Shown: positions 1-61,900 of the stretch, piece after piece | How the letters are laid out: each line of letters starts with the position of its first letter | Numbering within the stretch: position 1 is the first letter of the stretch | DNA from: Virgibacillus sp. AGTR | GTDB lineage: Bacteria > Bacillota > Bacilli > Bacillales > Amphibacillaceae | NCBI RefSeq assembly: GCF_016919725.2 | Contig: NZ_JAJERH010000006.1 | Coordinates: 1 to 64,000, forward strand | Length of the DNA: 64,000 bases | Reading direction: 5' to 3' | Notes under the pieces: model-generated | Told to the model about the DNA's origin: nothing | Databases searched by the model: none | The model's input: only the letters and a program-made list of their open reading frames with translations | Program-made: the position numbers and the translations under genes

Positions 1-40
1 TGTATCCACCCGCTCCATCTTAGTACTTTTATTGTAACTA

Positions 41-57005: not shown

Positions 57006-58103
57006 TTATTCAAACAAGCTTTCCTCATTGTCGGAATAAGTCTCATCCGCTTCATCCAATAAGCCTTCATCACGTGCTTCGGACTCACTTTTAATATCAA
57101 TTTTCCATCCAGTGAGCTTAGCAGCAAGTCTCGCATTTTGACCACGCTTGCCAATAGCTAATGATAATTGATAGTCAGGAACAATGACAGTTGTCGCTTT
57201 TTCCTCTTCATTCACTAATACTTCAACAACTTTAGATGGGCTTAACGCATTTGAAACATATACTGTTGGATCTTCAGACCATTCTACTACATCAATTTTT
57301 TCTCCTTTTAATTCGTTTACAATTGCTTGCACACGCTGGCCTTTTTGTCCAACACATGAACCTACCGGATCAATTTCTGGATCTGGCGCGTAAACAGATA
57401 TTTTAGAGCGGTCTCCTGCTTCCCTAGCAACGGACTTGATTTCGACAATGCCGTCATAGATTTCTGGAACTTCCATTTCAAATAATCGTTTTAATAACCC
57501 TGGATGTGATCTTGAAATATAGATTTGTGGGCCTTTGCTTGTATTTTCAACCTTTGTCACAAAAACCTTGATTCGGTCATGAATATAATATTCCTCCGTT
57601 GGCATTTGTTCAGCCTCAGCAAGTTTAGCTTCTATTTTTCCAAGGTTCACATAAACGAAGCGTGCGTCCTTTCGTTGAATAATTCCCGTCATTACATCTT
57701 CTTCACGGTCTGAATACTCTGAGAAAATCACACCTCGCTCTGCCTCGCGAACACGTTGTGTTACGACCTGTTTGGCGGCTTGGGCAGCAATCCTTCCGAA
57801 GTCTTTTGGTGTTACTTCTACCTCTACGACATCGTCAACCTGATAATTAGGATTAATTTTCTTTGCCTCTTCTAATGATAACTCTTGCTGTGTATCTTCT
57901 ACTTCATCGACAACCGTTTTTCTAGAGAAAACGCCCATTTTCCCAGTTTCTTCATTTAGTTCCACACGTACGTTTGTAGCTGATTTAAAGTTTTTCTTAT
58001 ATGCAGAAATCAAAGCAGCTTCTAACGCTTCCAATAGAATGTCCTTATCAATACCTTTTTCTTTTGCTAAATAATCAATTGCATCAAACAATTGCGTGCT
58101 CAC
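57006..58103 (-). CDS. nusA: Transcription factor NusA
   Basis: Binds RNA polymerase and modulates pausing and termination. The 365 residues contain the N-terminal polymerase-binding domain, S1 (GIIQRKDARFVYVNLGKIEA), KH1 and KH2 (GQKGQRVQ; GKRGQNARLAAKLTGW) and a short acidic tail. There are no acidic repeats as in Escherichia coli. Start is GTG after GGGGGAAAAG. It is the second gene of the rimP operon, so it could take part in control of the leader upstream of rimP. Confidence 0.97.
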   Translation of the reverse strand: MSTQLFDAIDYLAKEKGIDKDILLEALEAALISAYKKNFKSATNVRVELNEETGKMGVFSRKTVVDEVEDTQQELSLEEAKKINPNYQVDDVVEVEVTPKDFGRIAAQAAKQVVTQRVREAERGVIFSEYSDREEDVMTGIIQRKDARFVYVNLGKIEAKLAEAEQMPTEEYYIHDRIKVFVTKVENTSKGPQIYISRSHPGLLKRLFEMEVPEIYDGIVEIKSVAREAGDRSKISVYAPDPEIDPVGSCVGQKGQRVQAIVNELKGEKIDVVEWSEDPTVYVSNALSPSKVVEVLVNEEEKATTVIVPDYQLSLAIGKRGQNARLAAKLTGWKIDIKSESEARDEGLLDEADETYSDNEESLFE

Positions 58104-58118
58104 TTTTCTTTTCCCCCT

Positions 58119-58589
58119 TTAGAACGTTACAGCAAGTCTAGCCTTTGCTATTTTACTATACGGTATTTCTACTGTTAATTTGCGTGTTTTCACCTTATAT
58201 TCTATCGTTAGCACATCATCTACAAAACGCTTGAGAACTCCTTCATATGACTTCTCGCCATCTACGGGCTCATATAGCTTTACATAAATATTGCTATTTA
58301 TATGTTTCTCGAAGTCCTCTTTTGATTTTAATGGACGTTCTACTCCTGGAGATGATACTTCCAAAAAGTAAGCTTCCGATATTGGATCGGTTTCATCTAA
58401 CTTTTCACTCAACTCTTCAGACACTTCTCCACATTCTGAAATATCTACTCCGCCATTTTTATCAATATAAACTCGAAGGAAACGATTTTTTCCTTCTTTC
58501 ACATACTCAATATCGACAAGCTCTAAGTTCTTTTTCTCTAGAATAGGTAGAACTAGCTCTTCCGTTGTCTTAATTACTTGAGAACTCAA
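58119..58589 (-). CDS. rimP: Ribosome maturation factor RimP
   Basis: 30S assembly factor, 156 residues, the same length as in Bacillus subtilis. Conserved segments are [32 protein letters not shown] and [17 protein letters not shown] at 58589 lies 7 bp after AAAGGAGG and is the start; the frame is open 15 codons further. First gene of rimP-nusA-ylxR-ylxQ-infB-ylxP-rbfA, behind a structured leader. Confidence 0.96.
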
Positions 58590-58675
58590 TACATATCCTC
58601 CTTTATGCTGTTGTTTACTTACTAGTATGAACAAATCATTCCTATTTCATTTGAGTGAACTGCCTCCATCAATAT

Positions 58676-58783
58676 AAAACCCCTGCCGTAAGGAGTGGCA
58701 AGGGAAGTCATTGAGCAAAGTAGAGGTATGAAGAAAGAGTGGGCTGTCACCCACTCTTTAAAAACGTTCGTATCATTACTTAC
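58676..58783 (-). promoter_or_regulatory. Probable attenuator in the rimP operon leader
   Basis: The transcript from the promoter at 58791-58819 first forms a perfect hairpin AAAGAGTGGG/CCCACTCTTT (58734-58759). Downstream is a terminator CCCTTGCC/GGCAGGGG (58680-58704) followed by TTTTATATT. The 5' arm of the first hairpin can instead pair with GCCACTCCTT of the terminator (8 of 10), which would break the terminator. The two states exclude each other. Confidence 0.5.
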
Positions 58784-58790
58784 CAAAATA

Positions 58791-58819
58791 AGTATATCAT
58801 ATGGATAAATACGACGCAA
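58791..58819 (-). promoter_or_regulatory. Sigma-A promoter of rimP-nusA-infB operon
   Basis: -35 TTGCGT (58814-58819) and -10 TATACT (58791-58796) with a 17 bp spacer, giving a leader of about 195 nt before the rimP TTG. Confidence 0.6.
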
Positions 58820-58901
58820 GTTTACGTGCATGTAGGAATAGTATATCCATTACAACCCCCAAATAAACTTAAAATGGAGAAGCTCAGCCAACAGAATTAC
58901 A

Positions 58902-61900
58902 CTAGAATAGTGATAATTGGTTTTTCTCAGCCATTCCTTCTAAACAGCCGTGATTATCCAAATACTCCAAAACTGTTTTTGAAATTTTGCTACGTTCTCT
59001 TAAATCTTCTTTTGACAAAAATTCTCCTTCTTCTCTAGCCTTTACAATATTTATTGCAGCATTAGTACCCAATCCATCCACAGCATTAAATGGAGGAATG
59101 AGCGCATCACCATCTACAATAAATTCAGAAGCACTCGATTTATATAAATCCACTTTTTTGAATGAAAAGCCTCTTTCGCACATTTCTAATGACAATTCGA
59201 GTACGGTTAGTAAATTCTTTTCTTTAGGCGAAGCATCATTTCCTTTTGCTGTGATCGTCTCAATACGATTACGTATCGCATTAGAGCCTTTGATCATTGT
59301 GTCCAATTCAAAGTCATCTGCACGCACCGTGAAGTAAGCGGCATAAAAGAAAATCGGATGATGAACTTTAAAATATGCGATTCGCACTGCCATTAACACA
59401 TATGCAGCAGCATGTGCTTTAGGGAACATATATTTAATTTTTTTGCATGATTCAATATACCAGTCTGGTACATCATGTTTTTTCATTTCAGCAATCCAAT
59501 CATCTTGAAGCCCCTTACCTTTACGAACAAATTCCATGATCTTAAACGCTAGCGAAGCATCAAGTCCTTTATGCATTAAATACACCATAATATCATCGCG
59601 GCAACCAATTACATCAGGTAACTTACAAATACCATCATTAATCAATTCTTGAGCATTTCCTAGCCATACATCTGTACCGTGAGACAGTCCCGATATAATT
59701 ACCAATTCTGCAAACGTATTAGGCTTCGTATCTTCTAGCATTTGCCGAACAAACTTTGTTCCAAATTCTGGAACTCCTAATGTGCCCGTCTTACAATTAA
59801 TTTGTTCTGCGTTAACCCCAAGTGCTTCTGGTCCTGAAAATATAGTCATCACATCAGGATCATCCGTTGGTATTGTTTTCGGATCAATTCCGCTAAGATC
59901 TTGAAGCATTCTAATTACTGTCGGATCATCGTGTCCGAGAATATCTAACTTTAATAAATTATCATGGATAGAGTGAAAGTCAAAATGTGTCGTTCGCCAT
60001 TCACTATTCCGATCATCTGCTGGAAATTGAATTGGAGTGAAATCAAATATTTCTTTATCATCTGGCACAACAATGATACCACCTGGGTGTTGCCCAGTTG
60101 TACGCTTCACTCCTGTACATCCTTGCACTAATCGATCTACTTCCGCATTTTTATAAACAAGTTGTTTATCAGATGCAAAACCTTTCACATACCCATAAGC
60201 AGTTTTTTCTGCAATCGTACCAATTGTCCCAGCTCGATAAACATTATCTACTCCGAACAGCTCTTTTGTAAAATTGTGAGCACGGGGCTGATAATCACCT
60301 GAGAAGTTTAAATCAATATCTGGAACCTTATCTCCTTTAAATCCTAAGAACGTTTCAAATGGTATGTCTTGACCATCCTTCGTTAATGGCTTATCACAAT
60401 TTGGACATGTTTTATCAGGTAAGTCAAAACCACTACCTACAGAACCATCCGTTATGAATTCATTATAATGGCAAGCTTCACATACATAATGTGGAGGTAA
60501 AGGATTGACTTCAGTTATTTCTGTCATTGTAGCCACAAAGGAAGAACCAACAGAACCACGTGATCCAACTAAATAACCATCATCTAACGATTTCTTAACC
60601 AGTTTATGAGAAATCAAATAGATAACTGCAAAACCGTGACCAATAATGCTTTCCAATTCCTTTTCCAAACGATTGGTTACAATCTCTGGAACTGGATCAC
60701 CGTAAATTTTTTTCGCACGCGTGTAACACAAATCTCTCATTTCTTGATCAGCGCCTTCAATCGTTGGTGTGAATAATCCATCCTTTACTGGGGAAATGTC
60801 TTCTATCTCCTCAGCAATCATAGCCGAATTAGTAACTACAATTTCCTTCGCTTTCGCTTCTCCTAAAAAGTGAAAAGCTTTCAGCATCTCATTTGTTGTA
60901 CGGAATGGTGTTTTAGGTAATGTTACTCGATTTAATGGATTTCCTGCTTGTGAAGCAACTAAAATTTGGCGATATACCTGATCATGATCATGAAGATAAT
61001 GGACATTTCCAGTTGCAACTACTCGCTTTCCGATTCTGTCGCCTAACTTTACTAGTTTCTTTAAAATATCTAAGATCTGTGCTTCGTTTTGCACAAGGTC
61101 CTTCTCGATTAAATGGGTGTAATTAGCAGGTGGCTGCACTTCTATATAATCATAAAATTCCGCTACACTTTCCGCCTCTTCTTCGGACTTCTGCATGATT
61201 GTCTCAAATACTTCACCTTGATCACATGCTGAACCAATTAATATACCTTCCCGATACTTTTGTAATAAAGATCTAGGAATTCGAGGAACTCGATAGAAAT
61301 AATCAATGTGTGCATGAGATACTAATTTATATATATTCTTTAAACCCTCTTGAGTCTTCGCAAGTAAAATACAGTGAAAAGGACGTGATCGTTGATATGC
61401 ATTTCCTTCACCCATGTGATTATTTAATTGATTATGATTCGTAATTTCTTTTTTTAGTAATGCTTGCACTAACTTCCATAACAAATAACCTGTTGCCTCT
61501 GCATCATAAATAGCTCGGTGATGTTGAGTAAGCTCAATATCAAGATGTTTACATAACGTATTTAAACGATGATTTTTCAATTGTGGGAATAAAAATCTAG
61601 CAAGCTCTAATGTATCAATGACAGCATTATCTGCTTTGTTATAATTTATTTTCTTAAATCCTTGGTTTAAGAATCCCATATCAAAACTAGCATTGTGAGC
61701 TACTAATATATCGTTCCCCATCCAGCTATGAAAATCTTTTAATACATCTTCCACCTCAGGTGCATCTTGTACCATCTCATCCGTAATTCCTGTTAAATCT
61801 GTAGTTGTCTGAGACAAGGGATGATGTGGATTAGCAAAAGATTCAAATCGATCAACGATCTCACCTTGATGAATTTTCACAGCAGCTAATTCAATGATTG

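Follow-up and report, generated by a model that had tools for sequence, protein, structure and literature searches.

A leader upstream of the rimP-nusA-infB operon was described in 2010, with Firmicutes included, and was named the rimP-leader; it is characterised by a conserved GGG..CCC terminator stem (Naville and Gautheret, PMC2965389). According to the accessible portion of that paper, the hairpin lies 4-130 nt from the gene and NusA is the best candidate for the effector. In a 2015 RNA-seq study of Streptococcus agalactiae, a short and a long transcript sharing a single start were reported before rimP-nusA-infB, with termination 31 nt past the start, and NusA feedback was proposed (PMC4448216). 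In addition, a 2025 review states, in the part available, that NusA of Bacillus subtilis is autoregulated by termination in its own leader (PMC12288461). The original prediction for the locus studied here held that no such leader had been described in Bacilli; the accessible text of these three sources contradicts it, and the leader type is already known.

The window (the whole stretch of 64,000 nucleotides that was analysed) carries the leader and rimP on the minus strand, directly downstream of polC, whose stop lies at 58902. A sigma-A-type promoter was recognized in the sequence at 58791-58819 (-35 TTGCGT, 58819-58814; 17-nt spacer; -10 TATACT, 58796-58791). Its hexamers match at 3/6 and 5/6 positions, which is under the cut-off of the promoter scan, so the promoter was unlisted there. 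A lenient pattern (TTGnnn-16..18-TAnnnT) was found upstream of the first hairpin in 114/114 family leaders and in 15/114 reversed sequences. From the position of the promoter, transcription is predicted to start at G58784, with GGUAAGUAAUGAUACGAACG (58765-58784) as the 5' end of the leader RNA. The distance from this predicted start to the rimP start codon TTG 58589 is 195 nt, in agreement with the leader of about 195 nt in the original prediction. The rimP (ylxS) gene occupies 58119-58589, with AAAGGAGG at 58604-58597, and the open reading frame list opens its frame at an upstream TTG (58634). The second gene, at 57006-58103 on the same strand, is nusA, the proposed feedback regulator. The open reading frames downstream of the leader are taken here to be rimP, nusA, ylxR, ylxQ and infB. 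The NusA relatives in the 80 loci kept from the search are 63-91 % identical; the nearest named one kept, with 91 % identity, is that of Oceanobacillus jordanicus, and records very near the window were possibly excluded.

Folding of the leader region (58830-58675) gave -43.8 kcal/mol, compared with -28.75 ± 3.62 kcal/mol for shuffled sequences (z = -4.16), and 0/200 shuffles equalled it. A terminator scan of 57500-60000 returned 6 sites where 1.6 ± 1.4 were expected, two of which overlap the two hairpins described below (hp1 and hp2), in stem registers different from those defined here. None of the 4227 Rfam models matched the window at its gathering score; at E-values up to 10, five weak matches fell on the leader, all below gathering, and six related loci gave no gathering-score match.

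A BLAST search with the leader against 159 genomes belonging to the window's family recovered it in 114. Of 206 fetched loci, 205 contained RimP and gave 182 non-redundant leaders, 178 of which were usable for hp1. Among these, 114 were counted as the window's family and 64 as outside it; the equality with the 114 BLAST-positive genomes is coincidental. Seven named loci (L031, L032 and L034-L038) were assigned to the family by likeness. Excluded were L028, where RimP was not found, and L043 and L197, where hp1 was not located. L044, L047, L093 and L097 were left out because the script had placed hp1 wrongly in them, which affects the alignment and the outer-helix, hp1/hp2, GGNAA and outside-family counts. 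As the leaders are related, none of the counts below are independent.

The first hairpin, expected to be perfect, was confirmed as an 11-pair stem, AAAGAGUGGGU-GACA-GCCCACUCUUU (AAAGAGUGGG..CCCACUCUUU), at 58734-58759, with a free energy of -16.6 kcal/mol alone. Like the published rimP-leader, it stands in the 5' UTR of rimP-nusA-infB and has a G-rich 5' arm and a C-rich 3' arm (PMC2965389, as far as accessible). The GGGc(...)gCCC stem is represented in the window by GGGU-GACA-GCCC, and the pair adjoining GGG/CCC varies among relatives. hp1 lies 144 nt from rimP, beyond the published 4-130 nt (a descriptive range), and the second hairpin 90 nt. In the 178 non-redundant leaders, 1760 of 1780 hp1 pair cells are paired with little change of sequence, and 7 of 10 pairs are identical in at least 170 leaders. 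When 398 genomes sampled from the phylum were searched, 148 contained the exact pattern AAGAGTGGG-N2..12-CCCRCTCTT; among the matches listed for the backward control, one genome was matched. When 30 of the phylum loci were fetched, the window's own included, hp1 was located 21-171 nt upstream of the projected RimP start in 28. The remaining loci, L220 and L236, gave no RimP, and each of their genomes has another match to the pattern. Two genomes (G216 and G495) each carry two exact copies on separate contigs, which may be assembly duplicates.

After hp1 comes a broken U stretch (UUUCUUCAUAC), of which the first three U also take part in the pairing of the hairpin; in the alignment, this interrupted tail (CUUCAUAC, 58726-58733) is conserved in the window's family. 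An outer helix formed by the 5' and 3' flanks of hp1 was considered and rejected. On inspection of individual species it looked convincing, yet over 126 leaders matched flanks scored -5.15 and permuted ones -5.18 (p = 0.57), with p values by group of 0.07 to 0.99. This null result agrees with Naville and Gautheret, who likewise saw no larger conserved element (PMC2965389).

The near-invariance of the hp1 sequence exceeds the needs of a plain terminator, and this counts against the explanation that we prefer, an attenuator of the rimP-leader type. It would suit a hairpin that chiefly binds a protein in a sequence-specific manner (NusA, or a further operon product, e.g. RimP, YlxQ or IF2) and leaves termination to hp2 alone. 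hp1 stays nearly unchanged in the 178 leaders while the loop of hp2 and the spacer vary, it also occurs in 54 leaders from beyond the window's family in which no second terminator was detected, and a protein that reads the motif was also argued for by Naville and Gautheret (PMC2965389, accessible part). However, in lineages without hp2 any attenuation would require hp1 as the terminator, and the hp1 tail is hardly different where hp2 is present: its T-score is 3.27 in the 107 family leaders with hp2 and 3.31 in the 54 outside leaders. We regard this putative protein-binding role as possible but unlikely. On the same scores we do not claim a move of the terminator role from hp1 to hp2, as the difference is trivial despite a rank-test p of 0.0015 and the sequences are related.

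The terminator-like hairpin predicted downstream of hp1 was confirmed in the sequence. hp2 consists of the stem CCCUUGCC-9 nt-GGCAGGGG at 58680-58704 (58704-58671 with the following UUUUAUAUU) and is followed by the U tract UUUUAUAUUGA at 58669-58679, so that a short leader RNA is predicted to end near 58670. Conservation of the second hairpin in relatives had been named as a check, and the comparison showed it to be kept in 107/114 family leaders, each retaining 7 or all 8 of its pairs. The commonest tail is TTTTATATTGA(T/A), in 36 of the 107; many others differ from it by one or two bases. Among the seven family leaders without a regular hp2, five show by eye a related mismatch hairpin (CCCCCGCC..GGCAGGGG type) and two have none. 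Compensatory changes were observed at pair 5 (U-A to A-U in 2 leaders) and pair 7 (C-G to U-A in 3), together with U-G/U-A exchange, mainly at pair 4; non-pairs occur at pair 5 in 7 leaders and at pair 1 in 4. The loop varies in length from 4 to 13 nt.

Some other Bacillaceae, e.g. Bacillus haynesii (L060), which has both hairpins, and Priestia abyssalis (L068), carry a shorter second stem (CCCUGC..GCAGGG). No second U-tailed hairpin was found in the scanned leaders of Planococcus (L073, L080), Listeria (L051, L063), Brevibacillus (L098) and Paenibacillus. hp2 looks like a lineage-specific addition to the rimP leader, and this hairpin of reverse arrangement (CCC..GGG) downstream of hp1 distinguishes the window's family from the published rimP-leader (PMC2965389). 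A literature search found no description of a second hairpin in Bacilli, which is weak evidence of absence, as most subscription papers lay outside its scope. We take the locus to be a real regulatory leader of known kind, in which the rimP-leader hairpin is joined by a second terminator that the family retains.

Between hp2 and the rimP ribosome-binding site lies a conserved block, AATGAAA-N15-CATACTA (58623-58651, minus strand), which may be an additional promoter or act as an RNA element. The pattern AATGAA-N15/16-[CT][AG][TA]A[CA]TA was present in 60/114 family leaders and in 0/114 reversed controls. A similar pattern has 10 sites in the window's genome, and its reversed control has 0. We concluded that the block does not encode a conserved peptide, since the spacing is 16 in 50 and 15 in 10 of the 60 blocks, 9 of the 50 main-frame blocks contain a stop, and codon 3 is TAG in the window. 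Six genomes from the same genus as the window (L005-L010) have a longer distance of 413-876 nt between hp1 and rimP; extra DNA is located before or after the equivalent of the block, and both hairpins as well as the block are retained. In five loci (L011, L013, L015, L019 and L027) the leader promoter is preceded by an open reading frame, which falls between it and polC in those loci where polC was detected; its product may be an RsbR/STAS-type protein.

The original prediction also proposed a switch, in which the 5' arm of hp1 pairs with the 5' side of hp2 to form an antiterminator that excludes both hairpins. The complementarity is there in the window: GAGUGG of hp1 can pair with CCACUC at the arm and loop of hp2, with a duplex energy of -10.4 kcal/mol. 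In the relatives, however, it is not maintained; the hp2 loop is variable, and CCACUC occurs at this place in only 2/114 family leaders (2/98 in the covariation set), those of the window and L163. The covariation test covered 98 of 102 hp2 leaders, as L037, L144, L146 and L150 have an arm outside the pattern and were skipped. A Watson-Crick run of at least 6 between the hp1 arm and the hp2 side was found in 4/98 leaders (31/98 when G-U pairs were counted), and matched partners were no better than permuted ones (-6.67 and -6.70 kcal/mol, respectively; p = 0.70). When the pairing was forced in the window's nascent RNA, the energy was -10.0 instead of -22.5 kcal/mol, which is unfavourable by about 12 kcal/mol because the 11-pair hairpin must open. 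The failure of this pairing is a direct observation and goes against the switch, not against hp2; we consider the switch highly improbable.

GGUAAG, the first six bases of the predicted RNA, is a better competitor for hp2 than the hp1/hp2 pairing and is able to base-pair with CUUGCC in the arm of hp2. GGTAAG was present in 62/107 leaders with hp2, in 0/7 family leaders without a regular hp2 and in 0/64 leaders outside the family. In the modelled nascent RNA of the window, CUUGCC was paired upstream with a probability of 0.93, which fell to 0.26 when the 5' segment was shuffled. The nascent-RNA test covered 100 of the 107 hp2 leaders, the rest having no pattern match or a spacer longer than 120 nt. 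Under the assumption that transcription starts at GGUAAG, the 55 leaders with the motif gave a mean of 0.94, and shuffling of the 5' segment, the spacer and the arm gave 0.38, 0.86 and 0.37, respectively. For the 45 tested leaders without it, arm pairing was 0.40 both before and after shuffling.

As a family-wide antiterminator GGUAAG was rejected, since it is missing from 45/107 hp2 leaders and no covariation of the 5' end with the hp2 arm was detected (matched and permuted, p = 0.43 and 0.53). Moreover, the altered-arm family members listed have GGAAAG or similar and GGUAAG in 0/10, so the pairing is lost and not restored. Of the 54 outside leaders in which no second terminator was detected, 32 have the related GGNAA close to the 5' end, which indicates that part of the motif has another cause. 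Examples of such leaders are L095, L106 and L064, which have GGUAAU or GGAAAU close to the predicted 5' end and no hp2 as its partner. It is plausible, though unproven, that the competitor is a feature of the window's own group, and its counts may reflect few events.

Overall, the locus is most likely a premature-termination leader before rimP-nusA-infB for which NusA feedback is the best reading. The leader is probably an attenuator of the rimP-leader type that responds to NusA and has gained a second terminator. A polymerase starting near 58784 would transcribe hp1 and then hp2. A fraction of polymerases would end at the hp2 U tract and release the short leader RNA, some perhaps ending already after hp1, and the remainder would read into rimP-nusA and on to infB. 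GGUAAG may hold the CUUGCC arm until the 3' arm of hp2 emerges, and could serve as a plausible default antiterminator that is overcome with the help of NusA. NusA, the product of the second gene, would favour pausing and the folding of hairpins, and at a high level would therefore raise termination and lower the expression of its own operon. That termination takes place in vivo, that NusA is the effector and that the 5' end competes for the hp2 arm are inferences. Work by Mondal in 2016 reportedly dealt with autoregulation by NusA at the leader of B. subtilis. Of the autogenous feedback in the original prediction, the feedback itself stands as the best reading, on the strength of published work in relatives, and the hp1/hp2 switch proposed for it does not.

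The same gene set and proposed logic are given for the B. subtilis NusA leader in the accessible part of the review (PMC12288461). Compared by description, the S. agalactiae leader likewise yields a short and a long RNA from one start with NusA feedback proposed; its termination at 31 nt differs from the approximately 50-60 nt (hp1) and 105-115 nt (hp2) predicted for the window (PMC4448216, in part). It is also conceivable, though quite unlikely in our judgement, that the two hairpins are constitutive partial terminators that set a fixed ratio or shield the operon against read-through from polC, with no feedback. The leader does lie directly downstream of polC and the present sequence analysis gave no sign of regulation, but the phylum-wide sequence constraint on hp1 and the review's statement that NusA is autoregulated in B. 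subtilis speak against them (PMC12288461).

The complex rimP leader of Gammaproteobacteria is likewise reported to have two hairpins, arranged in tandem and opposite in polarity. As given in the available text, the CCC..GGG hairpin of several Gammaproteobacteria lies upstream, i.e. in reversed order, and a clear potential antiterminator is reported there, unlike in the window's family (PMC2965389). A bolder reading, which we hold to be unlikely, is that the phylum-wide rimP hairpin has turned into a sensor in this family, in which hp1, read by its sequence, would bind NusA and gate the lineage-acquired hp2, with GGUAAG as the default antiterminator. If this were true, leaders with two hairpins would have evolved on two occasions at the same operon, since the order in Gammaproteobacteria is the opposite. 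Under the preferred reading, a NusA-responsive attenuator with a second terminator, what the leader would set is the level of NusA itself. NusA is essential and stimulates approximately 75 % of the intrinsic terminators in B. subtilis according to the accessible part of the review (PMC12288461), and control of its level therefore matters transcriptome-wide.
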